Assembly: GCF_038002345.1 (NCBI RefSeq)
Contig: NZ_JBBOCJ010000001.1
Coordinates: 4,278,001-4,342,000, forward strand
Direction: 5' to 3'
DNA length: 64,000 nucleotides
DNA from: Paenibacillus sp. FSL M7-0420
Lineage (GTDB): Bacteria > Bacillota > Bacilli > Paenibacillales > Paenibacillaceae
Below, in pieces: positions 17,308 to 35,794 of this stretch (its first letter is position 1; the number at the start of each line of letters is the position of its first letter). The notes beneath the pieces are model-generated. The model was not told the DNA's origin and made no database searches. It was given only the letters and a program-made list of their open reading frames with translations. A program made the position numbers and the translations under genes.

Positions 17308-17342
17308 TTATTACAGAATCCGCTGAGATGTCAATGGCGACG

Positions 17343-17378: not shown

Positions 17379-17400
17379 GCTAATCCCTATGTTATTCATC

Positions 17401-18339: not shown

Positions 18340-18375
18340 ATCTTTCACCCCATTTAGCTGTCCGTAATTACATAT

Positions 18376-18505
18376 CCTGCACGAATTGCAACATTCCCCG
18401 GATCGAACTCCCGCTAACCCGAGAATATTGCATAAAATGCAGCAATTCCTTCGCATAAGGCAGTTATTCCGGACAATTCCTGCAATCTGTGCAACAATTC
18501 TCCCA
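18376..18505. repeat. Phased dyad array A: three TGCA-N5-TGCA copies at 51-52 bp
   Basis: The cores start at 18378 (spacer CGAAT), 18429 (TAAAA) and 18481 (ATCTG). Each is TGCA, five bases, TGCA, and is followed by RCAATTCC or a near form. Spacings are 51 and 52 bp, close to five helical turns. The array fills the region upstream of the ArsR-like regulator and is unlike any coding frame. Confidence 0.6.
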
Positions 18506-18530
18506 ACGGTGCCGCTGCTGAGATATCAAA

Positions 18531-18547
18531 GTTGTAAAACTTACAAC
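18531..18547. promoter_or_regulatory. Perfect dyad GTTGTAA-AAC-TTACAAC
   Basis: A perfect 7-3-7 inverted repeat lies about 190 bp upstream of the ArsR-like regulator and 70 bp after the MOSC stop. It looks like an operator, and a TATACT on the minus strand overlaps its edge. The binding protein is unknown. Confidence 0.45.
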
Positions 18548-18617
18548 AGTATAGTCGCTAAAGACATTATGTAGGTGACCGCTCACCTTTGGCAAGAGCG
18601 TAGGACTTCTGTCCAGC

Positions 18618-19343
18618 TTAGCTATCCAGCATCACTACTTGATCGCCCAGCCGGACCTCTCCCGGAGTGATAACGGAAGCGTAGACGCCGAACTGCTGCT
18701 TAAGCTCTTTGTATACTTGCTTCAGCAGCGAGCTGTCCCGCTCCAGCGTATCCGGGTCGGTCGTAATCATCACGCAGCGCTCACAATAGCTATCCACTTG
18801 CAGCACTGTACTGCCAATCGACAGACGGCGGCCGAGCCACTCTTCCTCCCCCAGCGAGTCCTCACTCACTTCCACCAGGAAGTTGCCCCGGAAGCGGCGC
18901 TGGTCTACAGGCTTTCCCCACATGGCTTCAAGGTTCTTCAGACTCTTGTCGGTTACCAGCAGTATGCTGGCCGCGTCTACAGACAGCAGCTGAGGATACT
19001 GTTCCTCCGGGTGCGGCGCCTTGAACGCAGACATCGTAATTTCCGTCCGGGTCAGACTCTGAATTTCCCTAAGCAGCTCCTCGTCCCAGCCGAATAAGCG
19101 GCCATCCGCAGCCGTTACACGGATATCTTCCCCTGTATATTCCGCCTTATAAGACATCATCTTCGGAATCTTGCGGGCAGTGATATACTGGGACCAGTCT
19201 TTTTTAGTCATATCATAAAAGGAACAATACCGGTCCCCCTCCACTCCGTAAGATACAACCTTACAGGCCTCCAGTGCCTCTCCTGCAAAGGATTTTACCG
19301 GATAACGGTTAATCGATTTAATCTCCCCAACTGTAACTGACAC
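18618..19343 (-). CDS. MOSC domain protein with N-terminal beta-barrel
   Basis: The 241-residue protein begins with the MOSC_N barrel (IKSINRYPVKSFAGE) and continues with a MOSC domain whose conserved Cys lies in DSYCERCVMIT. MOSC proteins bind the molybdenum cofactor or carry sulfur, as in YiiM/YcbX and mARC enzymes that reduce N-hydroxylated compounds. It is stand-alone, lacking a fused ferredoxin domain, so a separate electron donor would be required. The start has GGTGGGG about 7 bases upstream. No molybdopterin genes are nearby. Confidence 0.85.
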   Translation of the reverse strand: MSVTVGEIKSINRYPVKSFAGEALEACKVVSYGVEGDRYCSFYDMTKKDWSQYITARKIPKMMSYKAEYTGEDIRVTAADGRLFGWDEELLREIQSLTRTEITMSAFKAPHPEEQYPQLLSVDAASILLVTDKSLKNLEAMWGKPVDQRRFRGNFLVEVSEDSLGEEEWLGRRLSIGSTVLQVDSYCERCVMITTDPDTLERDSSLLKQVYKELKQQFGVYASVITPGEVRLGDQVVMLDS

Positions 19344-19385
19344 GCCCCCACCTCTTCTGTCTATAATCTGATAGCTCTGCTACTT

Positions 19386-20315
19386 TTACTGTAGCGGCTT
19401 TAACTTCTGAATCTCTTCTACGGAAAGCCCTGTTGCCTCGGCGATAACAGATAGCTCGATACCTAGAGCAAGCAGTTTATGAGCTGTTTCCTTCTGAGCG
19501 TCGGCCTTCCCTTCTGCTATTCCCTTTGCTATTCCCTTTGCTATTCCCTTAGCCATTCCCTCGGCCATACCCTTAGCCTCACCTTCAGACCATCCCTTGG
19601 CCTCGGCTACCTTAGCCGCTTCATACATCGACGCCTCGTCATGCAAATACCGCTGGCGTGCTTCGTATTGTCTGCGGGCCTCCTCGTTCTGACTCAGAAA
19701 CTCCAGTGTGTCCATGGCTTTCTTCAGCACAGGTTCGTTCATCGTAAGCACCTCCCATTTGGATTGGTCTGCTCCCTTCAGGAATAGCAGCCAGTTTACC
19801 AGTCCGCCTTGTTCTAAGGACACCGCCTTTTCATCCAGCTTCGGCAATTCCAGAAAGTGAATCTCAATGTCGTCAAGCAAAGGAATTCCCGTGCGGTCCT
19901 CCCGCAAGTGAAAGACGTTATGGTATAGAGTATTCGGCAGCAGAGCAAAGTTTATAATGTTGATCGTCACGCATCGCTTTAACTGGTTATACGGCTGGCT
20001 CTCTTGCAACTGAGAGGAATACTGTTTGCTCCAATAATAGAGGGTCCGTTTCTCTGTATCGTATTTGTTGAACAACTGCATCTCTACATTGATAATTTCG
20101 CCCTCAGTCGTCTTGGCCCGAATGTCGAGAATGGACTGCTTATCCCGAGGAGAGTCCTTGTCGGTGTAAGGATTCAGGAGAATAATGTCACTTAGAGGGG
20201 GCTTACCCGCTTCGGCAAAGGTTCGGTTCAGAAAAGCCAGCAGTACATCACGGTTCTCTTCACTTCCAAATATCCGTTTAAACAAGAAATCATTTCGGGG
20301 ATCAAGCAGCTCCAT
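19386..20315 (-). CDS. Rpn family recombination-promoting nuclease/putative transposase
   Basis: The 309-residue protein matches the Rpn (PDDEXK_2) family: LDPRNDFLFKRIFGSEEN at the N terminus and the nuclease core LDIRAKT-xx-GEIINVEMQ with the Asp, Glu and Gln of the catalytic fold. The middle is FLELPKL-like, and the C-terminal part is a helical stretch with repeated four-residue units (GMAEGMAKGIAKGIAK). ATG 20315 has GGAGG 9 bases upstream. Rpn proteins cut DNA and raise RecA-independent recombination; many copies occur per genome. It is not a true transposon here: no inverted repeats or target duplication are visible. Confidence 0.87.
   Translation of the reverse strand: MELLDPRNDFLFKRIFGSEENRDVLLAFLNRTFAEAGKPPLSDIILLNPYTDKDSPRDKQSILDIRAKTTEGEIINVEMQLFNKYDTEKRTLYYWSKQYSSQLQESQPYNQLKRCVTINIINFALLPNTLYHNVFHLREDRTGIPLLDDIEIHFLELPKLDEKAVSLEQGGLVNWLLFLKGADQSKWEVLTMNEPVLKKAMDTLEFLSQNEEARRQYEARQRYLHDEASMYEAAKVAEAKGWSEGEAKGMAEGMAKGIAKGIAKGIAEGKADAQKETAHKLLALGIELSVIAEATGLSVEEIQKLKPLQ
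19514..19586. repeat. 12-bp tandem repeat inside the Rpn gene
   Basis: GCTATTCCCTTT is repeated three times without change and continues in three weaker copies. It codes for the GIAK/GMAE units, so unit gain or loss keeps the reading frame. Confidence 0.8.
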
Positions 20316-20422
20316 CCAGTCCAGCCTCCGTTTCGGTCTTATTATACCATTATCGCTGCCTGTTTTGCGTAAGGCAAGAGCTGAACCCTTATGAACTTGC
20401 AACAATATAATTACATACACGC

Positions 20423-20453
20423 AAAAAGAAAAGGACAGCCCCAAGGCTATCCT
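20423..20453 (-). terminator. Rho-independent terminator of the Bce-type transporter genes
   Basis: On the minus strand GGATAGCC-TTGG-GGCTGTCC is followed by TTTTCTTTTT. Confidence 0.85.
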
Positions 20454-20468
20454 CTTCATTGCATATAA

Positions 20469-22412
20469 TTACAGGGATTCCCGGATTACCCGCTTGTAAT
20501 ACAGGACCGACAGAAGGCCGAAGATGGAATACAGCACGGTATACAGCCCCATAACGACGAACATCGGAGTAAGCATCTCGGTCCCGAAGAAGAACCAGCC
20601 GGATTTTACCGCAAAATAACTGTGGCACAGGCCGATTACCAGCGGAATACCGAAATTGAACAGCTGCTTGAACCGAATGCCGCTCAGGAGATCCCCTTGG
20701 GTGAAGCCCAGCTTGCGCAGGATCGTATATCCCTCCCGCTCCTCCTCGCTCTCATCCATCTGCTTGAAATAGAGAATACAGCCGGAGGTGATCAGGAACG
20801 TCAGGCCCAGGAATCCGACAATGAACATAATGAGGCCCATATTGGTCCGCTGGTTGAACTCAAATTCATATTGCGAGAAGCTTTGCAGCTCCGGCTTGTG
20901 CTGTGTATAAATCTCATAAGCCTGCTTGGCCTGCGAGGACCCGGTAAGATTGATACCGTAATAGATTCCTTCGCCGCTCACTCTTTTTTGCTCATCCGGA
21001 TCTTTATGCTGAAGCAATTCCTGGAAGACTGAATCATCCACCACGAACACCCCCAGGATCCCTCCGCCAAAATAATACGGCAGCACAGACTGCTCAGACA
21101 AACCTGTAAGCTGCTGCTTAATGACCCCACCCTTGATATACAAGTCCAATTCACCGCGATCCTTCAGCTTCAGCATGGTTTGCTTCGTAGTTGTGTAACC
21201 CATAATCCGTACCTCGCCCGGCTGCAAATCCATGTTTTTCAGACTGCTCTCACTAATCACGGTAGCCAATAGACTGGTGTCATTGTTGGAGAAATTTTTA
21301 GTATCCACGACCTCCTTAAGATCCACCTCTACCTGCACCGTTGGAATCTCCAGCGTGGTATAACCTATGCCGGCCTGATCCAGCGCCTCCCGGAATCCTG
21401 CCTCATCGGCCTTCTGAAGGAAGCCGTAATCATGCGGCGAGCTCTCACGCGCGGAGGACTCCACCGAATAATATGAGATATAGCTCAGAGAGAGCAGGCC
21501 GATCGCCAGCGCGGATACCGTGGTGATGACCGTCAGCAGCAGGGCATTCGATTTCATCCGGAACATAATGGAAGAGAGTGATAACACCTGCCGAATGGAC
21601 AGGTAGCCCTTCTTCCTGCGGCGGATGAGATTGAAGAGAAAGCTGACTGAGCCTTTGTAGAACAGATAGGTTCCGATAATCACCAGGGCGAGGATGGCAA
21701 TCATCGCATACATCAGCCCGTTCATACCCGTGAATCTGCCGCTGAACAGCTCCCCGGACACATAATACCCTCCGCAGATGCTGCCAATCCCGAGCAGGCC
21801 GATCACAACCTCCCACAGCGACATTCTCTGAATACGCGTCTGGGAAGTCGCCGTAGCCTTGAACAGCGACAGAATGCTCTGCGCCCGGATGAAGGTGTAA
21901 TTCATGATCATAATCAGCATATACACGGCGGCAAAAACCAGCACCGTCCGCCGCAGGGCCTCGGGGGAGAAGCGCAGCGCAGCGACCTGATCGACCTCCA
22001 GGATTTTGAACAGAATCATCAGGATCAGCCGTGACATCACGAACCCTGCACCGATCCCCGCGAACATCGATCCGAAATATAGAATCAGATTCTCGGCGCT
22101 CAGCAGCACGAAGATTCTGCTCTTGGTCAGCCCGATCAGCTGGAACAGCCCGATCTCCTTACTGCGGCGCTTGATGAAGATGGTGTTCGCATACAGCAGG
22201 AAGATGGCCACAATCGCAACCAGCAGGACGGAGGACGCGCCGATGGCAGCCCCGCCTTTGATCGAACCGCTGACCTCGTGCATGGCCGGGTCGAACTGCA
22301 GCGTCACGAAGGAGAAGTACAGGGCCACACTGAAAATAAGCGCGAACACGTAGAGATAATAGTTCTTAATGTTCTTTTTGAGGTTCCGCAGGATAATATA
22401 ATTCAGACTCAT
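20469..22412 (-). CDS. Bce-type ABC transporter permease
   Basis: The 647-residue permease has ten hydrophobic segments and a large extracellular domain between segments seven and eight (about residues 310-520), the layout of BceB/VraE permeases. FtsX-like regions flank it. These transporters remove antimicrobial peptides such as bacitracin from lipid II-cycle targets and also act as the sensor for their own histidine kinase. Its start overlaps the ATPase stop by 4 bp. It ends a four-gene module: response regulator, kinase, ATPase, permease. The exact peptide ligand depends on the extracellular domain and cannot be read here. Confidence 0.9.
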
Positions 22413-23164
22413 TGTGTGACACCGCCAAGTACGCCCTGAGTGCTGATAATATCACCCAAGAAGGATTGCCGCGATTCCTCCCCCTTGTTCAGCTGGGTGT
22501 AGATTTGCCCGTCCCGGATGAAGACGACACGGCTGCAGTAGCTTGCGGCCACAGCATCATGCGTAACCATGACAATGGTGGCTTCACGCTTGCTGTTCAT
22601 GGCGGCCAGCTTGTTCAGCAGATCGGACGCAGATTTGGAATCCAAGGCTCCTGTAGGCTCATCGGCAAAAATAATGCTCGGATCATGCACGAATGCCCGC
22701 GCCGCCGATGTACGCTGCTTCTGCCCGCCGGAGATTTCCGCCGGATATTTGTCCTTCAGCTCATAGATTCCCAGCTCGCCCGCTACCTGGTCGAATTTCT
22801 GGTGCGCCTCCTTCTTGGACATGCCTGTAATCGACAGCGGCAGCATGATGTTCTCCTTGACGGTCAAGGTGTCGAGCAGATTGTAATCCTGGAAAATAAA
22901 CCCGAGATGATGCTTGCGGAACTCGGCGAGCTGCTTCTCCTTCATCCCGGTGAATTCCTTGCCCTCAATTTCGATTGTGCCCTTGCTTACCCGGTCAATG
23001 GAGGACAATACGTTCAGAAGCGTCGTTTTGCCGGACCCGGACGGACCCATGATTCCGACGAATTCGCCCTTGTCCACCTGAAGATCAATGCCCCTCAGGA
23101 CTTCCTGTTTATTGAATTTGTTACCATAGGTTTTATAGATTTTGTTAGCCTGCATAATAAGCAT
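22409..23164 (-). CDS. Bce-type ABC transporter ATP-binding protein
   Basis: The 251-residue ATPase has Walker [11 protein letters not shown]-loop [13 protein letters not shown], signature [14 protein letters not shown], Walker [14 protein letters not shown] and H-loop VTHD. It belongs to the MacB/LolD-like group that serves BceB permeases. ATG 23164 follows GGAG by about 10 bases. A gap of 98 bp separates it from the kinase gene and contains a perfect BceR-type dyad and a TATGAT -10-like box. The transporter genes thus probably have their own inducible promoter, separate from the regulator genes. Confidence 0.92.
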
Positions 23165-23248
23165 CTGTTCCCCACTCCTTTTCTATAGCTCTATCATAAG
23201 CGGGTGGATGATTATTCTCCTGCGCTTCGCCGAACAAATGGAACAGGC

Positions 23249-23268
23249 ATGTGACACTATTGTCACAT
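23249..23268. promoter_or_regulatory. BceR-type operator ATGTGACA-CTAT-TGTCACAT
   Basis: A perfect 8-4-8 inverted repeat contains TGACA-N4-TGTCA, fitting the TNACA-N4-TGTNA pattern I know for BceR-like regulators. It lies about 70 bp before the likely start of transporter transcription (minus-strand TATGAT at 23193-23198) and overlaps the stop codon of the kinase gene. Confidence 0.7.
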
Positions 23269-24267
23269 ACCTGTCAGCCGCTGAAAGTCATTTTCCCTTG
23301 GAAAAGTCAGCGTAAATACACTCCCCTGCCCAAGCACGGAAGCAGCGTGAAGTCTAATCAGCAGCGGCTCCGCAACCTGCCGGGTCAGGTACAGCCCCAT
23401 GCCGGTAGCTGCCCCCTCCTGGCGGAATCGCGATGAGGTGAAGCCCTTATCGTAGATCCGCAGCAGATCCCTGGGGTCAATTCCCTGTCCGCTGTCTTCA
23501 ATGACAAGCACAACATGGCCGCCCTCCTCACTGCTCCGGATGAAGATATCGGAGGCTTCGCTGTATTTCACAGCATTGGTCAGGAGCTGCCGCAGCATGA
23601 AGGCCAGCCATTTACCGTCTGTCAGTACCGTTTCAGCTTCAAGCTCCACATCGAACCCGATGCGTTTGGAGATGCACCAGGATTTCAATGCCCGGATCTC
23701 CTTATTAAGAATAGGAGCAAGACCGACCTTCTCAATGAACAGATCATTGCGGATGAAGGGAATCCGCTTCTGGTGCAGCTGCTGGTCGAGCAGATGGTGA
23801 ATCCGCAGCCATTCGTACATCATCTGTCTTTGCAGGGTCTCGTCCGGCAAGCGCTCTATCATCAGCTGCATAGCAGTCAGCGGAGTCTTGACCTCATGTA
23901 TCCAGGCCAGCAGCTCGTCCTTCTCCGATTCCAGCAGCCCGACATTCACGGAGGATTCGCGCTTGTAACGGTCCGTCTGGGCGCTCACCGCCTCGTGGAC
24001 GAGCCGCTCCATCGGACTGCCCGGCTCCAGGACCGCCTGCAGCTCATAGATCTGATCCCAAGAGGCAAGGCTCTTGTAGAACCGGGTCTCCCGGGAATAC
24101 CTCAGGAAGACGAAGGCCAGGCAAAGCAGCGTATTGAGGAGCACAATGTACAGGACCGGCAGCAGCGGGATGGCAGAATCAATATAGGCCACGAATATAA
24201 TAATCAGCTGGAGGGCGGCCAGCAGGAGCAGCCAGCTCCGCTTCTCGGTGATGTATTTCCTTATCAT
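23263..24267 (-). CDS. Bce-type intramembrane-sensing histidine kinase
   Basis: The 334-residue kinase has two membrane helices (about residues 12-30 and 35-55) with almost no extracellular loop, so it cannot bind ligand itself and relies on the BceAB transporter, as in BceS. The phosphorylated His124 is in WIHEVKTPLTA. The ATP-binding boxes are LLTNAVKYS (N), VIEDSGQGID (G1) and TGMGLYLTRQV (G2). It overlaps the regulator gene stop by 4 bp. The partner regulator is encoded upstream and the transporter downstream, a complete detoxification module. Confidence 0.92.
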   Translation of the reverse strand: MIRKYITEKRSWLLLLAALQLIIIFVAYIDSAIPLLPVLYIVLLNTLLCLAFVFLRYSRETRFYKSLASWDQIYELQAVLEPGSPMERLVHEAVSAQTDRYKRESSVNVGLLESEKDELLAWIHEVKTPLTAMQLMIERLPDETLQRQMMYEWLRIHHLLDQQLHQKRIPFIRNDLFIEKVGLAPILNKEIRALKSWCISKRIGFDVELEAETVLTDGKWLAFMLRQLLTNAVKYSEASDIFIRSSEEGGHVVLVIEDSGQGIDPRDLLRIYDKGFTSSRFRQEGAATGMGLYLTRQVAEPLLIRLHAASVLGQGSVFTLTFPRENDFQRLTGM

Positions 24268-24953
24268 TCTGCCGCCTCTTCAGTCGCCATATACCCTTGC
24301 CCCACCTTAGTCTCTATGTAGGCATCCAGACCGAGCGGCTCCAGCTTCTTGCGCAGCCGGTTCACATTCACAGTCAGTGTATTATCGCTGACAAAATGCT
24401 CGTTGTCCCACAGGCTGGTGATGATCTCCTCACGCTCTACAATAGTGTTTTTACGCTCCAGCAGGATTTTGAGAATCAGCATCTCATTCTTGGTCAGCAG
24501 AGCCGCTCCCCCGCTGCCCGTGACTGTATTCTTCACGAACTCAATTGCCGCTCCGCGCCAGGTCTTCAGCTCCGTGCCTTCCTTGGCATAATTATAGACC
24601 CGGCGGAGGATGGCCTGAATCTTGGCAATCAGCACCTCGAAGTGGAACGGCTTCTGAATGAAATCATCGGCCCCAAGCTGCATCGACATCACCATATCGC
24701 TTGGATGGTCCCGGGAGGAGAGGAAGATAATCGGCACCTTGGAGTGGCTTCGCAGAATCCGGCACCAATGGAAGCCGTCGAACTGCGGCAGCTGGATATC
24801 AATCACCACCAGATCGGGCTTTACCTCCGAGAACTCCTGCAGTACCTTACCGAAATTTGTAATTCCGTACACCTCATAGGACCATTGGGCAAGTCTCTCC
24901 CTGATCTCCCCGAACAGGGTGATATCATCTTCGATTAGCATTATTTTGAACAC
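24264..24953 (-). CDS. Bce-type OmpR-family response regulator
   Basis: The 229-residue protein has a receiver domain with the acidic pair ED (residues 8-9), phospho-acceptor Asp52 (VVIDIQLPQFDG) and Lys in IQKPFHF, then an OmpR winged helix (DNTLTVNVNRLRKKLE). It is the partner of the kinase encoded 4 bp within its end. It should bind the dyad at 23249-23268 and switch on the transporter genes when the pump is busy with peptide. The start context is weak but the length matches the family. Confidence 0.92.
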   Translation of the reverse strand: MFKIMLIEDDITLFGEIRERLAQWSYEVYGITNFGKVLQEFSEVKPDLVVIDIQLPQFDGFHWCRILRSHSKVPIIFLSSRDHPSDMVMSMQLGADDFIQKPFHFEVLIAKIQAILRRVYNYAKEGTELKTWRGAAIEFVKNTVTGSGGAALLTKNEMLILKILLERKNTIVEREEIITSLWDNEHFVSDNTLTVNVNRLRKKLEPLGLDAYIETKVGQGYMATEEAAE

Positions 24954-25084
24954 AAAGGACTCTCCTTCAGAAGAAATACTATCGGACTATTATACTTCAC
25001 GTTTATTATATTTGTGAAACCTCCCCTTAACCAAGTAACGTATTAGATACAAACGGCGACAAATTTGAACCTACCGAGGAGCTG

Positions 25085-25333
25085 ATGATCATCGAAACTT
25101 TTAGCGCAATCTTCATCTTGTTATTTGGAATTGCAGTTAACTTATTTAGCTTATATGTGCGCAAAAACCCTACCTTCACCTGGCAGGCGAGTGAAAGCTG
25201 GAAAATGAAAGGTGATAGTGAACCCAGTGACGCCTATATCAGCTCCATGCGCTTCAGAGGGGCCGTGGGCTTATGGATGGGATCTTTCGTGATGGTGATG
25301 GGGATATTGACACTGTGGAGTTCTCTTAGTTAA
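25085..25333 (+). CDS. Small membrane protein, DUF6199-like
   Basis: The 82-residue protein has two membrane helices (residues 3-23 and 60-80) joined by a loop with PTFTWQASESWKMKGDSEPSDAYI. That loop resembles the DUF6199 family as I remember it (WKxKGDxEPSDxYI), a group of unknown function. GAGGAG lies very close to the ATG, a short spacing of 3 bases. It is divergent from the Bce regulator gene and 83 bp before the LysE gene. Confidence 0.65.
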   Translation: MIIETFSAIFILLFGIAVNLFSLYVRKNPTFTWQASESWKMKGDSEPSDAYISSMRFRGAVGLWMGSFVMVMGILTLWSSLS

Positions 25334-25416
25334 AGGAATAGCGGACTGCAATAATGTACTATAGCGATTCGCAGCCCCGGTGTATATTCATGGAACTACT
25401 TTCACCGGAGGTCTTC

Positions 25417-25998: not shown

Positions 25999-26014
25999 AA
26001 CGGCGGTGGTCAGG

Positions 26015-26791: not shown

Positions 26792-26834
26792 GCCGGAGCC
26801 CATACGAAAGATCATCTGATGAAGCATTCCAATA

Positions 26835-26888
26835 AAAGAAGGGCTGCCCCCGTCATCCTCATGACTTGGACAGCCCTTCCTTATTTAT
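26835..26888. terminator. Bidirectional terminator between the AraC and SLH genes
   Basis: AAGGGCTG and CAGCCCTT flank an inner GTCAT/ATGAC stem. T-rich tracts follow on the plus strand (TCCTTATTTATTT) and A-rich DNA precedes it, giving TCTTTTATT on the minus strand. Confidence 0.8.
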
Positions 26889-29800
26889 TTATGGCTTGAT
26901 CATCATCTCGCCGCCTTCCGGCCGGCTTGTGTAGTTATGATCCCGTGAAGCTTCCTCAATCTGATGGAACGCCCAGTGGATCATCGGCACATCGGACCAT
27001 ACTGGCACGGTCTCACCGTACAGCGGCCCTCTTTCCAGAATCCGGTTGAACACAGTTACCCCCTCGGCACGGGTCAAGGCTTTGTCCGGCTGGAAGCTGC
27101 CATTCAGCATCCCTTCCATATAACCGGCCTCTTTCGTTTGGCCGATTGCCTTCTCCGCCCAATGGCCAAGAGCATCGTTATAGCTGTGTTCTCCTGTACC
27201 TGAGAGTGCTTTCCAGCGCGCAATGATGACTGCCATTTCCGCTCTGGTGATGCTCTGCTCCGGTCTGAAGCTTCCGTCTGTCATGCCCTTCATTAGTCCG
27301 GCACCTGTAACCTGACGGATAGCTTCTGCTGCCCAGTGGCTGCCTGAGACATCCGAATATGGGGCTGCGTCTGCACCTTGCAGCGCCAGCACCCGGTAGA
27401 GAATCATGGCTACCTGTGCTCTGGTCAGCGCGTTCTCCGGCTTAAACGTTCCGTCCGGCATACCGACCATATAAGCGCGGTGGCTTCCGTCTGCTCCGTT
27501 GTCCAGATTAAGAATAGTGAAGGTGCTGAACTTCCCGATTGGGAAAGTCAGGCCCAGCTTGTTGTCCCCGTAAGCTACAACTGCGGGCTTCACCAATTCC
27601 CGTTCTCCGTCACTGTGCTCAATGAACACAGCCAGCTTCGACAGATAAGCTTCTCTTGCACGTGCCTCTGCCGGTACATGACTGCTGTCGAGCGGCAGGG
27701 TGATTGTTACCGGGCGGCTTGTCATATTGGTTTCAATCGTTATTGGACGATCTACTACATAGACGTTGCCATTGTTCAGTGCCTTGCGGACAATCTGCTC
27801 CGTTCTGGCCCGTTCTTCTACCTGCTTGCGCTCGCTTTCCTGTTTGACAGGAATCAGGTGGAAATACAGGTTCGGATTCAGGCCGCTGAGCGAGGCATTC
27901 GGAATGGTAATCATGCCGTTATCAGTATAGATTTCCAGGTTTAGGCCAGCGTCTTGTACAGCCTTCACTGCCGCATCCGGCAGCTCCACACGGACATCTT
28001 TTACGATATCCTGTTTGTCCGGAATAAGAATACGTACGCTTGGCGAATGGGCTGCCAAGGTCTTTTCAACCGCTTCAAGAGCTTTGGCCGTTGTAAACGT
28101 CACTTTATCGCTCTTGCTGCCATCGTTGTTTGTCGTTCTTTCAATTTCTGTTTTGGCAACAATTCCATAGCCTATGGCCTCAACATCTACTGTTATTCTC
28201 TCTATTACCGGTAAGACCGGTGTAGGTGTATTAGAAGGGACATAAGGTGTCTGAGAAGGCTCATTAGGCGCGGCTTGGCGTCTCACGGTAACCGTGTACG
28301 TTTTTTCGCTGCCATCCGTTTCCCGAACTACGATGGTTACGGTATTATCGCCTACATTCAGAGTCACCGCAGCACTAGCTTGCCCCGTCCCGGCCGCCTG
28401 GCCGTTAACCGTAATGGCTGCGTCCGGATGAGCGGCTGCCAATGTCAGTTGAAGCTCGGAGACCTTGTACTCCACATTAAGACTGTACTCGTACACGCTC
28501 GCCGTCACATTGGGTTGAATCGCACCAGCCGATGGCGTAATGCTTGCCAGACCGCTCTTGGGAACCAATGCCCGGTAAGCCGCCTGCAATGCTTCCAGTG
28601 CAGTGTCCACTTCCGCCTGCGTGGCAGTGGCGCTTGCCAGTACTGCTTGCGCGTCGGTCAGCATGGACTCGTAGCTCGCCCAGCTTGCTGGCGTGTAGGT
28701 CTCCTTGTCCAGAATAGCGGACAAGTCCACTTCCGCTTGCAGCTTGCTCTTGTCCACCACTGGTACCACAGGCACTTCCACCAGCGCTTCACGTGCTGCT
28801 GTCAGCTCCGCCAGTGCTGTATCTACTTCGGCCTGCGTAGCAGTTGGACTCGACAGCACCGCTTGCGCGGTGGTTAGCTTGGACTCGTATTCCGTCCAGC
28901 TTCCAGGTGTGTAGTCTTCCTCGGCCAGCGTGGAAGACAAGTCCACTTCCGCTTGCAGCTTGCTCTTGTCCACCACTGGTTTCAGCACCAGCGCTTCACG
29001 CGCTGCGGTCAGCTCCGCCAGCGCCGTGTCCACTTCGGCTTGCGTAGCCGTGGCGTTACCGAGCACCGCTTGCGCGGTGGTCAGCTTGGATTCGTAACTC
29101 GTCCAGCTTCCAGGTGTGTAGTCTTCCTCGTCCAATGTGGAAGACACATCCACTTCCGCTTGCAGCTTGCTCTTGTCCACCACTGGCTTCAGCACCAGTG
29201 CTTCACGCGCTGCGGTCAGCTCTGCTAGCGCCGTGTCCACTTCCGCTTGTGTAGCCGTGGAACTCGTAAGCACCGCTTGCGCAGTCGTCAGCTTGGACTC
29301 GTAACTCGTCCAGCTTCCAGTTGTGTAGTCTTCCTCATCCAATGTGGAAGACACATCCACTTCCGCTTGCAGCTTACTCTTGTCTGGCTTCAGCACCAGC
29401 GCTTCGCGCGCTGCGGTCAGCTCTGCCAGTGCCGTGTCCACTTCCGCTTGTGTAGCCGTGGAACTCGTAAGCACCGCTTGCGCGGTAGTCAGCTTGGACT
29501 CGTAACTCGTCCAGCTTCCAGGTGTATAGTCTTCCTCATTCAATGTGGAAGACAAATTCACTTCCGCTTGCAGCTTACTCTTGTCTGGCTTCAGCACCAG
29601 CGCTTCGCGCGCTGCTGTCAGCTCCGCCAGCGCCGTGTCCACTTCGGCCTGCGTGGCCGTGGAGCTCGTAAGCACTGCTTGCGCAGTCGTCAGCTTGGAC
29701 TCGTAATTCGTCCAGCTTCCAGGTGTGTAGTCTTCCTCGGCCAGCGTGGAAGACAAGTCCACTTCCGCTTGCAGCTTGCTCTTGTCCACCACTGGTTTTA

Positions 29801-32615
29801 GCACCAGCGCTTCGCGCGCTGCGGTCAGCTCTGCCAGTGCCGTGTCCACTTCCGCTTGTGTAGCCGTGGAACTCGTAAGCACCGCTTGCGCGGTGGTCAG
29901 CTTGGACTCGTAATTCGTCCAGCTTCCAGGTGTGTAGTCTTCCTCATCCAATGTGGAAGACACATCCACTTCCGCTTGAAGCTTGCTCTTGTCTGGTTTC
30001 AGCACCAGTGCTTCACGTGCTGCGGTCAGCTCCGCCAGTGCCGTGTCCACTTCCGCTTGTGTAGCCGTGGAACTCGTAAGCACCGCTTGCGCGGTAGTCA
30101 GCTTGGACTCGTATTCCGTCCAGCTTCCAGGTGTGTAGTCTTCCTCGGCCAGCGTGGAAGACAAGTCCACTTCCGCTTGCAGCTTGCTCTTGTCCACCAC
30201 TGGTTTCAGCACCAGCGCTTCACGTGCTGCGGTCAGCTCCGCCAGTGCCGTGTCCACTTCCGCTTGTGTAGCCGTGGAACTCGTAAGCACCGCTTGCGCG
30301 GTAGTCAGCTTGGACTCGTATTCCGTCCAGCTTCCAGGTGTGTAGTCTTCCTCGGCCAGCGTGGAAGACAAGTCCACTTCCGCTTGCAGCTTGCTCTTGT
30401 CTACTACAGTAATCGTTTTGGAGGCCATGTTGGTTTTTCCGTTTTTGGCCGAAGTCACTTCTACCGTGTATTTGCCATACGGCAGTGCCGCTTCCGGCTT
30501 AAAGCTCCATGTGCCATCCGCATTCACAGTAACTGTGGGAGTTCCGATGGTTTTACCGTCCTCATCTTTGATGACTGCCGTTACTGTAGCTCCAGGATCT
30601 GTCGTTCCCTGGAACTCCGGCTTGGGATCGGTTACCGTCTCTCCGCCCGGAGCTGTGACCTCAATTGCGGGCACTGGAAGATTAACCGTAATCCCCTTGG
30701 TGGCAACTGCAGATTTCACACCTTTGGTTGCTGTCGCCTCAACGGTGTACTCCCCATCGTGTAAGTCGCTGCCCGGGGTGAACGACCATGTCCCGTCTGC
30801 TTCGACGACAGCATTTCCGCCTGCGCCAGTTACGATCTGTCCATCTTTATCCCTGATTACAATTGCTACGGCAGAACCCTCTTCAGCCTCTCCTGTAATC
30901 TCAGGTTTAGGTACATTGACCGGACTTCCCGCAGGCTGGGTGATCTTAAGTGAATCAATGAATTGATCCCTTGGACTGACCGCAAACGGCTTAGCAGGGG
31001 CTCCGTAAGTGCTCTTGAGCGAACCCGTGCCATCATAGGACACGTTCACCGTTTTCCCTTTAACATCCGTACCCTCAGGCAGCGTCAAAATCAGCTTCTT
31101 GGAATCGGCAGAGTCCACTCTGTAGGTGAGGCTGCTTATAGGCACGGCTGTGCCTCCAATCTCAACAATGAAGCCTGCCAGATTGTCCGTGGTCATCTCC
31201 TGGTCGAAGGCCAGCACGATCTCATGTCCATCCTCCGCAATTTGTTCCAGCAGAGAGTTCTGAAGCTCAGGAGCCTCTGCCGCAAAAGTGAAGTATTGCC
31301 CATCCTTGAGCGTCACCTTCGCAGCATAGTGAGCTTTATTGGCAAGTGTGATTGAACTGAGCTCATACTCAGTGGCTTGTGCGAAGTCCGTGTCCGTATC
31401 GCTCACCAGCAGCTTTACGGCTCCCGGGGCAGCCGATGCAGGAATGGCGATTTCCACCTCTCCTACAGTCCCATTATTCTGAACCTTCCAGATCCGCTGG
31501 GCCAGATACCAATCCGTCGAGCCAAGCTGTTCAGTGAATTTAACAGGTTTGCCATTATCGCCCCAGATGAGGTATTGCTTATCCGCAAGCGCAGCCGTAT
31601 TTCCGCTGTTTGCTTCAGCAAGTCCGCCCAGACCGATTGCGACTTGTGTGTCTTTATTAATGCTTCGGCTTTGCTTCTGGTCCAGCTCCTCCAGAATGTC
31701 TTTGCCAAGGCCCGCCACATTGTGATGATACGCCGAGTTGGCCGTCTTGCTCCACAGGAGAGTACCATCCGTACCAATGTAGTCATGGTCTAAAGTGATG
31801 CCGTATTTTACAGCAAGATATGTCTCAATCTTCGCTGCATCAGCACTTGTGATGGTGTCATATAAAATAATTTCCGCTACTTCCGCATTCAGACCGGACC
31901 AGTTATACTGGGCAGGCGCATTAGTCGCTCCAATAGACGGGGTGAAGGAGAAGGCTGGAAAAACACTCCTTGTAACAGTTGTATTTTTCCCGTCAATACT
32001 GGCGGTATGGCCCGGTGCTCCTATTTGATAATTTACAAGCTGGTGCCTGTCCCGAATCGTCGAAGCGACATAAGTGTATACATTTGTTTCACCCGGACCT
32101 GTACTTACACTGTTACCATAGCCGCCCATAACAATTACACCGTTGGAAGACTTTTGATCCGAGCTGCCAACGAGAGCCCCTGCACTTCCATCCTCCGGCC
32201 ATTTGTACACCGTATACCCTGACCGGAATGTAATCGCTTTGTCACCCAGCAGCTTCGCCGACGAACTATAATGATACGCGCCTAAAGGATTGGCAAACTT
32301 CACACTCGGATTAAAATTCACTCCGCTTTCATTGTACTGCGGAACTTTTGCCCCATTAGGAAGGTCGAGCGTGAACGCCACAGGGTTAGGAGAACGATCC
32401 TGCCAGCCTGTCAATCCTCCATTTGCAGCCGCTGCGCCATCATCCGCCTTCAGCCATAATACCGGCGCCTGAAGACTTCCGCCTGGAGTTCCGCTGGCCG
32501 CGTGCACCTTCGATGTCACAACTGCCGAAGAGAAACCGCTAGCCACCAGTGTCAGCGACAGCAAGGCTTTCGCCGGCCTGCTCCACCAGCCTTTTCGTTT
32601 TGCATGAGATTCCAT
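26889..32615 (-). CDS. Large S-layer-homology surface protein with FIVAR repeats
   Basis: The 1908-residue precursor has a signal peptide ending near VHA-AS. Residues 50-285 resemble a laminin-G/concanavalin-like domain (VLWLKADDG, AEIILYD, YLAVKYGITLD). Next is a SwmB-like Ig domain (FDQEMTTDNLAGF), then two Ig-like repeats ending DGTWSF. Nine FIVAR-type three-helix units follow (about residues 735-1355), then a cadherin-like beta-sandwich (SASAAVTLNVGDN-like), a mixed domain, and three SLH domains at the C terminus that bind pyruvylated wall polymer. It probably acts in adhesion or glycan binding at the cell surface. GGAAGG precedes ATG. Domain names are from family knowledge, not a search. 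Confidence 0.9.
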   Translation of the reverse strand: MESHAKRKGWWSRPAKALLSLTLVASGFSSAVVTSKVHAASGTPGGSLQAPVLWLKADDGAAAANGGLTGWQDRSPNPVAFTLDLPNGAKVPQYNESGVNFNPSVKFANPLGAYHYSSSAKLLGDKAITFRSGYTVYKWPEDGSAGALVGSSDQKSSNGVIVMGGYGNSVSTGPGETNVYTYVASTIRDRHQLVNYQIGAPGHTASIDGKNTTVTRSVFPAFSFTPSIGATNAPAQYNWSGLNAEVAEIILYDTITSADAAKIETYLAVKYGITLDHDYIGTDGTLLWSKTANSAYHHNVAGLGKDILEELDQKQSRSINKDTQVAIGLGGLAEANSGNTAALADKQYLIWGDNGKPVKFTEQLGSTDWYLAQRIWKVQNNGTVGEVEIAIPASAAPGAVKLLVSDTDTDFAQATEYELSSITLANKAHYAAKVTLKDGQYFTFAAEAPELQNSLLEQIAEDGHEIVLAFDQEMTTDNLAGFIVEIGGTAVPISSLTYRVDSADSKKLILTLPEGTDVKGKTVNVSYDGTGSLKSTYGAPAKPFAVSPRDQFIDSLKITQPAGSPVNVPKPEITGEAEEGSAVAIVIRDKDGQIVTGAGGNAVVEADGTWSFTPGSDLHDGEYTVEATATKGVKSAVATKGITVNLPVPAIEVTAPGGETVTDPKPEFQGTTDPGATVTAVIKDEDGKTIGTPTVTVNADGTWSFKPEAALPYGKYTVEVTSAKNGKTNMASKTITVVDKSKLQAEVDLSSTLAEEDYTPGSWTEYESKLTTAQAVLTSSTATQAEVDTALAELTAAREALVLKPVVDKSKLQAEVDLSSTLAEEDYTPGSWTEYESKLTTAQAVLTSSTATQAEVDTALAELTAAREALVLKPDKSKLQAEVDVSSTLDEEDYTPGSWTNYESKLTTAQAVLTSSTATQAEVDTALAELTAAREALVLKPVVDKSKLQAEVDLSSTLAEEDYTPGSWTNYESKLTTAQAVLTSSTATQAEVDTALAELTAAREALVLKPDKSKLQAEVNLSSTLNEEDYTPGSWTSYESKLTTAQAVLTSSTATQAEVDTALAELTAAREALVLKPDKSKLQAEVDVSSTLDEEDYTTGSWTSYESKLTTAQAVLTSSTATQAEVDTALAELTAAREALVLKPVVDKSKLQAEVDVSSTLDEEDYTPGSWTSYESKLTTAQAVLGNATATQAEVDTALAELTAAREALVLKPVVDKSKLQAEVDLSSTLAEEDYTPGSWTEYESKLTTAQAVLSSPTATQAEVDTALAELTAAREALVEVPVVPVVDKSKLQAEVDLSAILDKETYTPASWASYESMLTDAQAVLASATATQAEVDTALEALQAAYRALVPKSGLASITPSAGAIQPNVTASVYEYSLNVEYKVSELQLTLAAAHPDAAITVNGQAAGTGQASAAVTLNVGDNTVTIVVRETDGSEKTYTVTVRRQAAPNEPSQTPYVPSNTPTPVLPVIERITVDVEAIGYGIVAKTEIERTTNNDGSKSDKVTFTTAKALEAVEKTLAAHSPSVRILIPDKQDIVKDVRVELPDAAVKAVQDAGLNLEIYTDNGMITIPNASLSGLNPNLYFHLIPVKQESERKQVEERARTEQIVRKALNNGNVYVVDRPITIETNMTSRPVTITLPLDSSHVPAEARAREAYLSKLAVFIEHSDGERELVKPAVVAYGDNKLGLTFPIGKFSTFTILNLDNGADGSHRAYMVGMPDGTFKPENALTRAQVAMILYRVLALQGADAAPYSDVSGSHWAAEAIRQVTGAGLMKGMTDGSFRPEQSITRAEMAVIIARWKALSGTGEHSYNDALGHWAEKAIGQTKEAGYMEGMLNGSFQPDKALTRAEGVTVFNRILERGPLYGETVPVWSDVPMIHWAFHQIEEASRDHNYTSRPEGGEMMIKP
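28555..30415 (-). repeat. Nine near-identical FIVAR-coding units of 201 or 207 bp
   Basis: Each unit codes for 67 or 69 residues beginning DKSKLQAEV and ending AAREALVLKP. Units 3, 5 and 6 (counted from the protein N terminus) lack the VV linker, giving 201 instead of 207 bp. Units 1-8 differ at few positions; unit 9 (next to the SLH side) is the most diverged. This points to expansion by unequal crossing-over. Confidence 0.85.
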
Positions 32616-33169
32616 CTTTCACCTTCCGCCCCTTCTATAGTCCTTGTTTGAAACTCGAAGAGATAAAAAGGCAGACGGTTCCTTTGTGTTAATCGCCATC
32701 TCGAGCTCCAAACAGAACTCTTTGTAGTAGTAAATACAAATCCGGCAACTTCAACTCTGCTAACCTCTGAATCCTTACAGCAAGCTCAGCGTTCTTCCGT
32801 CCATGGCAATACCGCCATGCTTCAGCAGCAGCACTTCAAGATCGCTCTGATGAATCCCTCCTTTGACCTGCTGTTTTAAGAACTGCTGACAATGGGTCAG
32901 ACTGCTCAGGGGAAGAACGCAGACGGTCACACATGCATTTAACTTAACCCGTTCCCGGACCTAAGCCATACTGGCACACAGAATAGTGCCTCCAATCATG
33001 TTAATAAGCGCATGTGAACAAAATCTGAACATTTTCGACAAATTGGTGATTTTTTCATACAAAAATCTCGTATCCCCCTATAAAATATGCGCTAAAACAC
33101 TAGGCTATGGTTCGAATTTTATTTTCGTCATTTATTTTTGTCACATCTGCTGATAAAGCTTTTTACAGA
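32616..33169. other. Gene-poor leader region upstream of the SLH gene
   Basis: This 554-bp stretch holds no convincing gene. It contains a TTTGTA-N8-TACAAA dyad at 32721-32740, about 110 bp before the SLH start, and a 51-codon open frame on the minus strand (GTG 32930 to TAA 32775) without a ribosome site. The outer part (33000-33165) is AT-rich and probably holds the promoter. No known riboswitch consensus was recognised. Confidence 0.45.
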
Positions 33170-33210
33170 CAAAAACTCCGGCAGTCCGCATAACTGCAGA
33201 GCCGGAGTCT
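33170..33210 (-). terminator. Rho-independent terminator of the 33277-33957 gene
   Basis: On the minus strand ACTCCGGC and GCCGGAGT flank an inner CTGCAGTTATGCGGACT loop, and five T residues follow. Confidence 0.85.
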
Positions 33211-33276
33211 TCATTATTCTTCCATATCATAAATACCAGGACTAATCACTCTACGCCAATCCTATACATGAATGGT

Positions 33277-33957
33277 TCACTTGCTTGAATCTATTGTCCC
33301 ACTGTCCCGGACATCTGTAATAACCTTGGTAGCAATAATCTTCCCGGCCTGATCCAGTCCTTCGATTTTGAACGGAACGCCCGCCGTCGCCGCTTGAAAA
33401 GCAAACCAAATCGTCCGGCCCTGCGACGTCTGAATCAGCTTTGCCTCGGACTTATCGGTCCCGGTCTGCTTTTGCTGAACGATAATCTGCTGAATAGACG
33501 GGTCCAGCACCTCACCGAACACCATAGGAAACGGAGTGGAGATTTGCTCCAGCTCAGGCAGCCTCATATAATTCATTGCCGACACGGAAGGGTCTCCGTC
33601 CATCCCGTAGCCCGCCCCCCAGACCCACTTCCAGCCGATCCAGGTTTTGCGGACATATTCGACTTGAAGATTGCTGCGGTCCTGATCACCCGAACGGGTC
33701 AGAAAAACAAGCTTCCCCCTGCCAACAGTCTCCTCATGTACCACCGTCATGGAATCAGACTCACGGAATAACCGTACGGCCTCCTCCGGACTTGAGCCCA
33801 GAGGAATCTGGAGCGACTGATTCATTCCCAATGAGCGGGACATCCGCTGGTCCGACCACCCGCCGGGTCTTTCATACATATATAACAATAAATAGAGTAC
33901 CGCTACAGAAGCCAGAATCACTCCCGCAGCCATCCCCCATCTCCGTGTAGTTTTCAT
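33277..33957 (-). CDS. Membrane-anchored protein of unknown function
   Basis: The 226-residue protein has one N-terminal membrane helix (residues 8-28) and an extracellular domain. The body holds two parts: residues 55-130, with GKLVFLTRSGD and WIGWKWVWGAGYG, and a C-terminal beta-rich part with QGRTIWFAF and VPFKIEGLDQAG. I know similar hypothetical proteins in Bacillaceae that share such a tail, but no function. AGGAG lies 8 bases before ATG and a strong terminator follows, so it is a single-gene unit. Confidence 0.7.
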   Translation of the reverse strand: MKTTRRWGMAAGVILASVAVLYLLLYMYERPGGWSDQRMSRSLGMNQSLQIPLGSSPEEAVRLFRESDSMTVVHEETVGRGKLVFLTRSGDQDRSNLQVEYVRKTWIGWKWVWGAGYGMDGDPSVSAMNYMRLPELEQISTPFPMVFGEVLDPSIQQIIVQQKQTGTDKSEAKLIQTSQGRTIWFAFQAATAGVPFKIEGLDQAGKIIATKVITDVRDSGTIDSSK

Positions 33958-34052
33958 GAGTGCATCTCCTGTCCCGATTGTTTGCGCTTACAACAGCTTC
34001 CATTTAACTATAGATGATTTCGGTCCAGATTACAAAATCCCCCCATACCATA

Positions 34053-34097
34053 TAAAAAGCCTGTAGCGCAAGCCCCTCCGGGACCCTGTCTACAGGC
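34053..34097 (-). terminator. Rho-independent terminator of the 34141-34695 lipoprotein gene
   Basis: On the minus strand GCCTGTAG and CTACAGGC form a perfect stem with an internally paired loop, followed by five T residues. Confidence 0.88.
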
Positions 34098-34140
34098 GGT
34101 ATTTCCTTATAGTAATTGAATGGATTCCAATATACTTATT

Positions 34141-34695
34141 TTATTTAACTTCTGTAGCTCCGGTTACTTTACCTTCAAGCACAGCCGTTGCCTTCACATC
34201 TTCGCTGGAGAAGTACAGGTTGCCGTCGATTGTAGCATCCTTATACAGGTTGAAGCCGTTAGCTTCTACATATACATCACCTTTGATCGTACCGCCTTGA
34301 ACGCGGAAGTTCTCGCTCTGTACAGTTACTTTTGGTGCTGTAAGGGTGTAAGTAGCTGTAACTTTGTGGTCTGCATCCTGTGCGTACAGGGCCAGCTTAC
34401 GGTAGATTGGCTTAGCTGTATCGTTCTTGTCGTGGAATTCGCCTGCTACCACTACATCCTTGTCCACAGTCAGATCATTCAGAATAGCAACGATCCAGGT
34501 TCCTTTGTCGCTCACTGCACTAATGAAAGCATCTGCCTGGTTCACGATTGAAGCGGAGGTAACTGCATCTGCCTGTTCTGTTGCTGGTGCCGTTGTCGCT
34601 GCTGCCCCTTTGTCTGCATTGTTTTTATCCGATCCACAACCCGACAACAAAGCTACCGATACCCCTGCAACTACTAATACTTTAAATAATTTCAT
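34141..34695 (-). CDS. Lipoprotein with beta-helix-like C-terminal part
   Basis: The 184-residue protein has a lipobox LLSGC (Cys20) and a Thr/Ala-rich linker of about 30 residues. The remaining part shows regularly spaced strands (KDVVVAGEFHD, GTIKGDVYVEANGFNL, ATIDGNLYFSSEDVK, AVLEGKVTGA), which resemble the stacked turns of polymer-forming bactofilin or pectate-lyase-like helices. It would be anchored on the outer membrane face. The codon use (many GTAGC/ACTTCT-type codons) looks adapted for high expression. The ribosome site GGGGG is 9 bases before ATG. Function unknown. Confidence 0.78.
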   Translation of the reverse strand: MKLFKVLVVAGVSVALLSGCGSDKNNADKGAAATTAPATEQADAVTSASIVNQADAFISAVSDKGTWIVAILNDLTVDKDVVVAGEFHDKNDTAKPIYRKLALYAQDADHKVTATYTLTAPKVTVQSENFRVQGGTIKGDVYVEANGFNLYKDATIDGNLYFSSEDVKATAVLEGKVTGATEVK

Positions 34696-34727
34696 TTTAA
34701 TTCCCCCTGTTTCTTTAAGTTAACTTT

Positions 34728-34755
34728 ATTATATATTAAAATTTTATGAATACAA
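34728..34755 (-). promoter_or_regulatory. SigA-type promoter of the lipoprotein gene
   Basis: On the minus strand TTGTAT (34750-34755) and TATAAT (34728-34733) are separated by 16 bases, about 35 bp before the start codon. Confidence 0.6.
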
Positions 34756-34771
34756 CGTGATAATTTTCACG
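34756..34771. promoter_or_regulatory. Dyad CGTGA-N6-TCACG touching the lipoprotein -35 box
   Basis: A perfect 5-6-5 inverted repeat sits directly upstream of the -35 hexamer, where an activator would bind. The regulator is unknown. Confidence 0.45.
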
Positions 34772-34802
34772 AATTTGTGTCTTTTTTCACAAACATTCAT
34801 AT

Positions 34803-35345
34803 TTACTCTCTCAACGTATCCTCCCACTCCTCTCTAAGCAGCCCCATTCGGATAGAATCATAGTATATTCCGTTATAATAACGGCATTTTCTAAGCCTGG
34901 CCTCCATCGTCATGCCCAGCTTCATTCCTGCCTTCATCATTCGCTCATTCCCGGACCAGGTGGTGTAGCCGACACGGACTAGCGGAAGGGTAGTGAATAA
35001 ATGACCAATCCACAGCTTGAGAGCCCTAGTCCCATAACCGCTGCTCCAATAGGCAGGATCATAGATGACAATCCCCATTTCCAGCCAGTATGACGGCTCA
35101 TGCTCCCAGTAGTAGCTGACATCACCTATAACAACTCCCTCTACTTCTATTACCCAATTGTTCACACAGCCAATAATTTCGGCTCGCTTCCTGTAATACG
35201 TCTCCCATGTAATTCGTTTGTGTTCATAATAAGGCGCATCCCATTTCTTCCATTCCGGCGCTTCCTCTTTATATGCGAGTTCCCACAGCCTGGGCAGATC
35301 CCCTTCAGCTATTGGACGAATCTGCAGTTCATGATCCTGAATCAT
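34803..35345 (-). CDS. GNAT family N-acetyltransferase
   Basis: The 180-residue protein is a RimJ/RimL-type GNAT: N-terminal LQIRPIAEGDLPRLWEL, acetyl-CoA loop YWSSGYGTRALKLW, and the C-terminal strand-helix GNERMMKAGMKLGMTME. GGAGGG lies 5 bases before ATG. The substrate is unknown; similar proteins are annotated as ribosomal-protein alanine acetyltransferase or as antibiotic resistance enzymes without proof. It is followed by the lipoprotein promoter, and no terminator of its own is visible. Confidence 0.87.
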   Translation of the reverse strand: MIQDHELQIRPIAEGDLPRLWELAYKEEAPEWKKWDAPYYEHKRITWETYYRKRAEIIGCVNNWVIEVEGVVIGDVSYYWEHEPSYWLEMGIVIYDPAYWSSGYGTRALKLWIGHLFTTLPLVRVGYTTWSGNERMMKAGMKLGMTMEARLRKCRYYNGIYYDSIRMGLLREEWEDTLRE

Positions 35346-35516
35346 ACAATCCCTCCGTAACAGTTAATATGTTGCCAACTAATCTTATAATAACTGACTA
35401 GAGGAAGCCCCGGCTGGTAATGAATGTGTATAAGCAAATTGGACATCCCGGCGGCAGATTGAGATAATACAGAGGAATTCAACGAGCGAGTACACAGACA
35501 TTTAAGTCATAAGTCA

Positions 35517-35702
35517 TAGTTGTATTACGTGCAATTAAAAACAGTAAAAAAGACGCCTTCACACTTATAATTGTAGTCTGTGCAACTAAATCTTCCCTAA
35601 TGGGTTCGAACTAAAGCAGGTAGGCCATTTTAATTGTACGAAGTACAGCTAAACCGATCAGCGGTGGTAAAAGGAGCGTTTTAGTTGTACAAAATACAAT
35701 TA
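35517..35702. repeat. Phased dyad array B: four TARTTGTA-N5-TRCARYTA copies
   Basis: The cores TGTA-N5-TRCA are centred near 35527 (spacer TTACG), 35578 (GTCTG), 35641 (CGAAG) and 35692 (CAAAA). Distances between centres are 51, 63 and 51 bp, close to five, six and five helical turns. The copies lie between the GNAT and serine hydrolase genes. Flanking bases differ between copies, so only the 21-bp dyad is conserved. Confidence 0.65.
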
Positions 35703-35794
35703 AGCCTGCCGCATGTACCATAATCGTTAGGGTCACGGCCACTATTCACGTTTTGGCCGTGCCTATATACGTATAAACAGAAAGGATAATCCCA

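Follow-up and report, generated by a model that had tools for sequence, protein, structure and literature searches.

The 64,000-nucleotide stretch of the Paenibacillus sp. FSL M7-0420 genome analyzed here (the window) carries two four-site arrays, A and B, of the dyad TGYA-N5-TRCA (Y, pyrimidine; R, purine; N, any nucleotide). We found that they belong to a family of dispersed arrays whose sites follow each other at 51 to 52 or 62 to 63 bp, that is, at five or six turns of the DNA helix, and this spacing by whole turns indicates that a protein probably assembles on them. All eight sites that a first-pass annotation of the sequence had assigned to the two arrays were found with the TGYA-N5-TRCA core (Table 1). 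The window holds 12 matches to the pattern, against a mean of 3.4 and a maximum of 9 in 100 shuffles (12 or more in 0 of 100).

The genome holding the window is labeled G000 (7.67 Mb, two contigs), compared genomes carry other G numbers, and extracted stretches carry L numbers. Over the whole of G000, the pattern occurs 1,129 times and the reversed pattern 190 times. The reversed pattern is a weak control, and some other Bacilli give a similar ratio (for example, 597 versus 100 in G342), so the count alone proves little and the spacing is the decisive evidence. It was determined in an own-genome sample of 1.264 Mb, comprising the window and 60 stretches of 20 kb from G000, of which 59 were evenly spaced and one, L068, was picked for its arrays in the genome-wide site count. 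Among the 218 sites of this sample, pair distances of 51 bp (n = 52), 52 bp (n = 20), 62 bp (n = 13), and 63 bp (n = 2) formed distinct peaks, the chance expectation being about 0.04 pairs per exact distance by our own arithmetic; 18 of the 72 gaps of 51 to 52 bp stem from one 19-site tandem array in L010. A single gap, of 59 bp, lies between the two classes, and the other adjacent gaps of up to 160 bp were 103 bp (n = 2) and 73, 94, 104, 105, 113, 144, 149, 150, and 160 bp (n = 1 each). The genome-wide excess of one site family expected from the first-pass annotation was confirmed by the counts and the spacing peaks together. With an array defined as at least two sites whose neighbors are at most 130 bp apart, the sample contains 32 arrays comprising 127 sites. 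Extrapolation from 27 arrays in 1.18 Mb, which leaves out the window (two arrays), L068 (two arrays), and a chance-like 59-bp pair, gives about 175 arrays per chromosome.

We also measured gaps in other genomes. In 100 public loci, which were retrieved by a 51/52-spaced pair so that only their other gaps are independent, we counted gaps of 50 to 53 bp (218), 61 to 63 bp (59), 73 to 74 bp (3), 95 bp (1), 103 bp (4), and 112 to 115 bp (4), with 25, 26, and 99 bp once each. The 16 loci from G243, a genome of another genus, gave 50 to 52 bp (25), 60 to 62 bp (14), one gap of 113 bp, and one of 9 bp. Gaps 2 to 9 bp off the preferred values are rare, and one extra helical turn is tolerated.

Arrays A and B had been described as having one architecture. 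The core and the phasing are indeed common to both, but the arrays represent two different sub-types. Type I, to which array A belongs, reads CCTGCA-N5-TGCAACA, with sites mostly in the same direction within an array and gaps of 51 and 52 bp (51, 52, and 52 bp in A). Type II, to which array B belongs, reads TTTARTTGYA-N5-TRCAAYTAAA with variants and typically has four sites at gaps of 51, 62 or 63, and 51 bp (51, 63, and 51 bp in B). Across the own sample's 13 type II arrays with four slots, N5 is pyrimidine-rich in slots 1 and 2 and purine-rich in slots 3 and 4, which makes the type II array mirror-symmetric; the slot pattern is weaker in 51 public arrays. The words RTCTG, CGAAN, and YAAAA occupy slots 2, 3, and 4 of array B but slots 3, 1, and 2 of array A. 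A and B have three of four N5 words in common within one mismatch, and random pairs of four-word sets from 100 array sites had at least three in common in 914 of 20,000 draws (4.6%). The sharing is modest, and the spacer classes initially proposed reflect preferences of particular slots, not discrete classes common to both arrays.

The sites look constrained at two inherited loci while the DNA between them diverges. One is the gap between purC and purS (genes named by NCBIfam and Pfam), where G000 carries an array at L012:5960-6136. We searched 30 genus genomes with PurC, permitting gaps of 44 to 59 and 54 to 71 bp. The four-site array was found in 11 (G000, G157, G303, G276, G251, G172, G134, G287, G118, G074, and G110), one or two exact sites were found in 5 (G126, G084, G236, G029, and G265), and none were found in 14. 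The gaps are 51, 62, and 51 bp in 9 of the 11 arrays and differ by one base in 2. Under an acceptance rule of at most one core mismatch over four sites, which favors intact arrays, 263 of the 264 core letters match the consensus. Averaged over columns, identity reaches 0.992 for the core, 0.756 for the 6-bp arms, 0.75 for the Y/R letters, and 0.63 for N5, but only 0.445 for the mid-spacer. The spacers of G303, G276, G251, G172, and G287 are 58 to 85% identical to those of G000, for which vertical descent is the simplest reading.

The other is the locus of array A. A search of 100 genus genomes with the neighboring MOSC protein gave 27 matches including G000 (26 relatives). Four exact sites are kept in L071, L073, and L074 and three in L075, and the positions are retained in G276 (L079) and G251 (L080). 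In an ungapped, in-register comparison of G000 with G251, 23 of 24 core letters but only 68 of 116 spacer letters are identical (Fisher P = 1.7e-4); N5 agrees at 11 of 20 positions and the Y/R letters at 3 of 8, all five changes staying within Y or R. The corresponding values for G276 are 22/24 for the core, 4/8 for Y/R, 11/20 for N5, and 68/116 for the spacer (P = 1.2e-3). Array B is not clearly conserved, so positional conservation in relatives, which had been suggested as a check, holds for two of the three loci looked at. Among 30 B loci found with the gene at 35795..36742, a single exact site within related sequence remains in G126, and G222 has a remnant interrupted by another repeat. 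In G265 (L111), two sites stand 51 bp apart and the spacers are unrelated; with 15 of 24 core and 34 of 126 spacer letters identical, this pair is not recognizably array B. In L123 (G118), a full four-site array lies just behind, not before, the B-side gene. G222 has an extra type II array at L152:3147, where neighboring genomes do not align.

Rough gene calls for the own sample gave 1,005 genes and 81% coding sequence. Of the 32 arrays, 31 are intergenic, the exception being the chance-like 59-bp pair. Array contexts were tandem in 18 cases, convergent in 10, divergent in 1 (array B), and at an edge in 2, with 170 tandem, 36 convergent, and 75 divergent intergenic gaps of more than 200 bp available. 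The arrays mostly avoid divergent promoters and lie mostly behind gene ends. Families were searched in 30 of the 51 listed neighboring proteins: GNAT acetyltransferases were found three times, His_Phos_1, Pyr_redox_2, and DDE_Tnp_1 twice each, and 5 proteins had no family at 1e-8. The expectation that a single site family is dispersed over varied gene contexts was upheld, with no family common to most of these 30 neighbors.

By our own reading of counts in a 245-genome family sample, the type II pattern exceeds the control in 26 of 32 same-genus genomes, most weakly in G185 (5 and 8 versus 1 and 2); the other six are at background (G165, G191, G212, G217, G226, and G231). Outside the genus, it is sporadic and clearest in G156 and G230 (both g13), G243 and G032 (both g18), and G022 (g4). 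Among the 80 stretches listed from a scan of public genomes, 79 are from Paenibacillus or Paenibacillaceae and 1 is from a Planctomycete assembly; the matches listed are thus nearly restricted to Paenibacillaceae. Nothing on such arrays in Paenibacillus was found in searches of the openly licensed PubMed Central literature, where a negative result proves little.

Judging from these sequence patterns, we think it fairly likely that the arrays serve as platforms for a single binding protein or a few related ones, which would contact double-stranded DNA as a symmetric dimer. The target of a dimer would be the 13-bp dyad TGYA-N5-TRCA together with some 6 bp on either side that differ by sub-type. 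A spacing of 51/52 or 62/63 bp would place several dimers, typically four, on one face of the helix, where cooperative assembly could yield a single complex with wrapped, looped, or bent DNA. We infer protein binding, the dimeric state, and cooperativity alike. The chromosome-organizing or regulatory role envisaged in the first-pass annotation is plausible. By analogy, our guess is that it would most likely be local chromosome architecture or a transcription boundary behind gene ends, as proposed for bacterial interspersed mosaic elements (BIMEs), and that this function would be useful but dispensable at any one locus.

Several observations weigh against binding platforms. No binding protein was identified, and no family was common to the scanned neighbors. 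The best-fit gap period is 10.75 bp in the own sample, 10.4 or 10.2 bp in the public loci, and 10.2 or 10.5 bp in G243; these values differ among data sets and so fix the helical period only loosely, the span of 10.2 to 10.75 bp arising because gap classes are few. The four-site purC-purS array is absent in 19 of the 30 genus genomes, and in 26 further genomes (10 of the same genus and 16 of other genera) none was found, G179 having one site. By eye, the other 19 loci contain no full-length decayed array; several contain fragments, and in some of these the sites have decayed (e.g., G236, G042, and G304). Besides the acceptance rule noted above, the spacers of the remaining five purC-purS arrays outside G000 are only 39 to 52% identical to those of G000, so independent insertion is possible in those five genomes. 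Array A is missing in several near relatives and fragmentary in others, and the four-site array B is intact at its place in G000 only. Arrays are dispensable at single loci and often lost. Array copies are moreover related, at 70 to 76% identity with one pair at 93%, and near copies exist in G243, which means that arrays have spread. Finally, pooling the sub-types yields an association between half-sites (odds ratio of 4.4 in the own sample and 2.8 in the public loci), which we attribute to sub-type mixture, type I being mostly CG.

The half-site letters bear on the choice between a double-stranded site and a hairpin. A hairpin should favor TA and CG beyond independence, and neither the type II sites (TA 32, CA 17, TG 16, and CG 2) nor the purC-purS sites (TA 18, TG 14, CA 7, and CG 5) do so. 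That half-sites vary independently within a sub-type favors a symmetric protein bound to double-stranded DNA over a hairpin. No Rfam match at the gathering score was found on window positions 17000 to 36500, and the three matches on six further loci do not lie on an array. Together with the independent half-sites, this lack of a match in the scanned stretches disfavors a hairpin or RNA reading of the TGYA sites. An RNA role stays conceivable for the purC-purS array, because it lies between same-direction genes of one pathway and may be transcribed. The same evidence bears on the idea that the arrays are repetitive extragenic palindromic (REP) sequences or BIMEs, moved or maintained by a REP-associated tyrosine transposase (RAYT, of the Y1 type) and acting as single-stranded DNA or RNA hairpins. 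The arrays and the REP/BIME repeats are alike high-copy, extragenic, palindromic, clustered, and preferentially downstream of genes: the arrays show this placement (31 of 32 intergenic and 1 divergent by rough gene calls), location downstream of genes with few copies between divergent genes is described for REPs in PMC3733652, and regular spacing is typical of BIMEs according to PMC2817692. The latter paper also reports that BIME-2 binds gyrase and that the inter-REP part of BIME-1 binds integration host factor; in PMC3733652, the word "Firmicutes" is absent and "bacillus" occurs twice. The arrays differ, however, in having a short split dyad core in place of a base-pairing stem with compensatory changes, half-sites varying independently within type II and at purC-purS, and in their spacing in helical turns and four-site unit. 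No conserved GTAG/CGTC tag showed up when the flanks of 67 type II sites were profiled, nor in the type I flanks listed. The arrays also occur without Y1 transposases: 10 of 24 genomes searched had no match to Y1_Tnp (PF01797), 7 of these being array-rich (G013, G064, G118, G134, G157, G156, and G243). The sole intact Y1_Tnp copy of G000 belongs to an IS605-like element with TnpB beside a different kind of array, and RAYT mobilization is disfavored on both counts. The REP/RAYT reading of the TGYA-N5-TRCA arrays is largely refuted and the least probable we considered. Conventional operators, at which a local transcription factor would act on adjacent promoters, are very unlikely too. Array A does lie about 30 bp upstream of an ArsR-type regulator gene and array B between two divergent genes, but B is the sole such array among the 32, neighboring genes have no common function, and the extrapolated number of arrays far exceeds a local operator set.

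A serious rival, because the copies are related, is an origin as miniature mobile elements. The four-site unit would then be the end structure of a small transposon, with two transposase sites per end, moved by a transposase encoded elsewhere, and the apparent conservation of the sites would reflect the survival of recently active copies alone. In favor of this origin, both the spacing and N5 of type II arrays have dyad symmetry (weaker in public arrays), and the B region aligns over 142 to 224 bp with seven other type II loci of the own sample at 70 to 75% identity, in addition to shorter pieces. In G243, related copies lie in a larger dispersed repeat, the left part of which was found at nine places. 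A 327-bp repeat, 93% identical between L037:1685-2011 and L043:14582-14933, carries a type II array, and its L043 copy is bounded by inverted ends like CTAGTAGAGCATCAGA. Two of the 30 scanned neighbors are DDE transposases, and the array A gap in G236 and G202 is bounded by the short repeat TGTCC, readable as a target duplication. Like miniature inverted-repeat transposable elements (MITEs), the arrays are short, dispersed, and non-coding with related copies, type II being dyad-symmetric; unlike for MITEs, no general terminal inverted repeat or clear target duplication was found, comparison with empty sites at A and B giving an ambiguous picture, and sites are conserved at inherited loci. The inverted ends of the L043 repeat occur within 600 bp of an array in L037 and L043 alone, apart from one match with three mismatches in L025, and we rejected a single MITE behind all arrays, as its ends adjoin few of them. 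At the A locus, G172 and G157 have flank-like sequence on both sides without sites (by eye), which together with partial arrays in other relatives fits deletion better than insertion, and at A and purC-purS the sites are intact though spacers diverge. The one type II array compared with phage and plasmid collections matched neither, which speaks against a phage or plasmid origin. We regard the mobile-element origin as unlikely, though clearly ahead of operators. The 4-5-4 dyad geometry and whole-turn separation of the presumed platforms recall the ComK boxes of Bacillus (AAAA-N5-TTTT, boxes whole helical turns apart), which differ in sequence, in promoter location, and in using two boxes, compared with four at five, six, and five turns here.

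Table 1. Sites of arrays A and B and adjacent genes in the window
Feature	Position	Strand	Remark
Array A site 1, TGCACGAATTGCA	18378..18390	+	type I; flanks ..ATCC / ACATT
Array A site 2, TGCATAAAATGCA	18429..18441	+	51 bp past site 1
Array A site 3, TGCAATCTGTGCA	18481..18493	+	52 bp past site 2
Array A site 4, TGTAAAACTTACA	18533..18545	+	52 bp past site 3
Array B site 1, TGTATTACGTGCA	35521..35533	+	type II, mirror-symmetric array
Array B site 2, TGTAGTCTGTGCA	35572..35584	+	51 bp past site 1
Array B site 3, TGTACGAAGTACA	35635..35647	+	63 bp past site 2
Array B site 4, TGTACAAAATACA	35686..35698	+	51 bp past site 3
ArsR-type helix-turn-helix gene	17401..18348	-	gene start about 30 bp left of array A
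MOSC-domain gene	18618..19343	-	gene end 73 bp right of array A; query for orthologous A loci
GNAT acetyltransferase gene	34803..35345	-	diverges leftward from array B
Beta-lactamase-family (serine hydrolase) gene	35795..36742	+	diverges rightward from array B; query for orthologous B loci

The product of the ArsR-type gene matches Pfam HTH_20 and HTH_5 above the cut-offs and NCBIfam HTH_metalloreg below its cut-off; in the neighbor-protein scan, it had no family at 1e-8.

Other arrays with a 51-bp pitch occur in the same genome. In the own sample, identical 7-mers recur at lag 51 in 4,284 cases, compared with 370 at lag 48 and 460 at lag 54. Tandem arrays with this pitch are built on TGTAATCG-RAAAAC-CGATTACA (L010:7133-7727, L028:14318-15260, L049:2410-2735, L062:17003-17267, and others). 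With up to two mismatches, there are 264 + 142 matches in G000 and 125 + 251 in G084, and none of the remaining 116 genomes, out of 118 from the family, has more than one. In related arrays the arms read TGTATGC..GCATACA; the A-rich centre is the same and both arms have changed, as they would in a hairpin. In 51/52-bp arrays at L045:11947-12384, L046:17068-17805, L029:16247-16714, and L055:2124-2442, AGGTGCACTAGTGCACCT and AGGGATAAATCCCT palindromes adjoin; among 41 genomes searched, the AGGGATAAATCCCT kind is enriched in part of the TGYA-array genomes and near background in six without a type II site. The strand of the A-rich centre in the other-palindrome arrays follows the replichore (by eye), with an exception at L039:16425, and this rule holds in 11 of 12 convergent gene contexts (polarity by eye); the GC skew of G000 flips between 3.66 and 3.77 Mb. 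Palindromic arrays of another kind, likewise with a 51-bp pitch, lie between purC and purS in a different genus (L370:1240-1467 in G230 and L372:1040-1381 in G156). In the window itself, AAACAAGTGGAAAAAC occurs twice at a distance of 51 bp, and an imperfect inverted copy comes after the pair (49925-50077), with a similar element at about L044:19270-19420. The IS605-like TnpA/TnpB pair carrying the sole intact PF01797 match of G000 lies near a 51-bp array at L036:9197-10771 (TnpB by eye). The other-palindrome arrays resemble hairpins and may be something distinct that shares the 51-bp pitch by coincidence.

A broader interpretation, which we put forward tentatively and would not yet favor, is that Paenibacillaceae possess an undescribed chromosome-organizing system of some 175 phased arrays per genome, mostly with four sites and each folding DNA around a cooperative complex of a dimeric protein, of which the other-palindrome arrays of this and another genus may be variants obeying the same five-turn rule. 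Such repeats should not be taken for CRISPR-like (clustered regularly interspaced short palindromic repeat-like) or coding repeats. To our knowledge, organization behind gene ends has been best studied for the BIMEs of enterobacteria. If the arrays are protein platforms, a large soil genus would have a helically phased binding system that extends over the genome and is conserved at single loci even as nearby bases drift, and the arrays would offer a direct handle on chromosome organization behind gene ends in Gram-positive bacteria.

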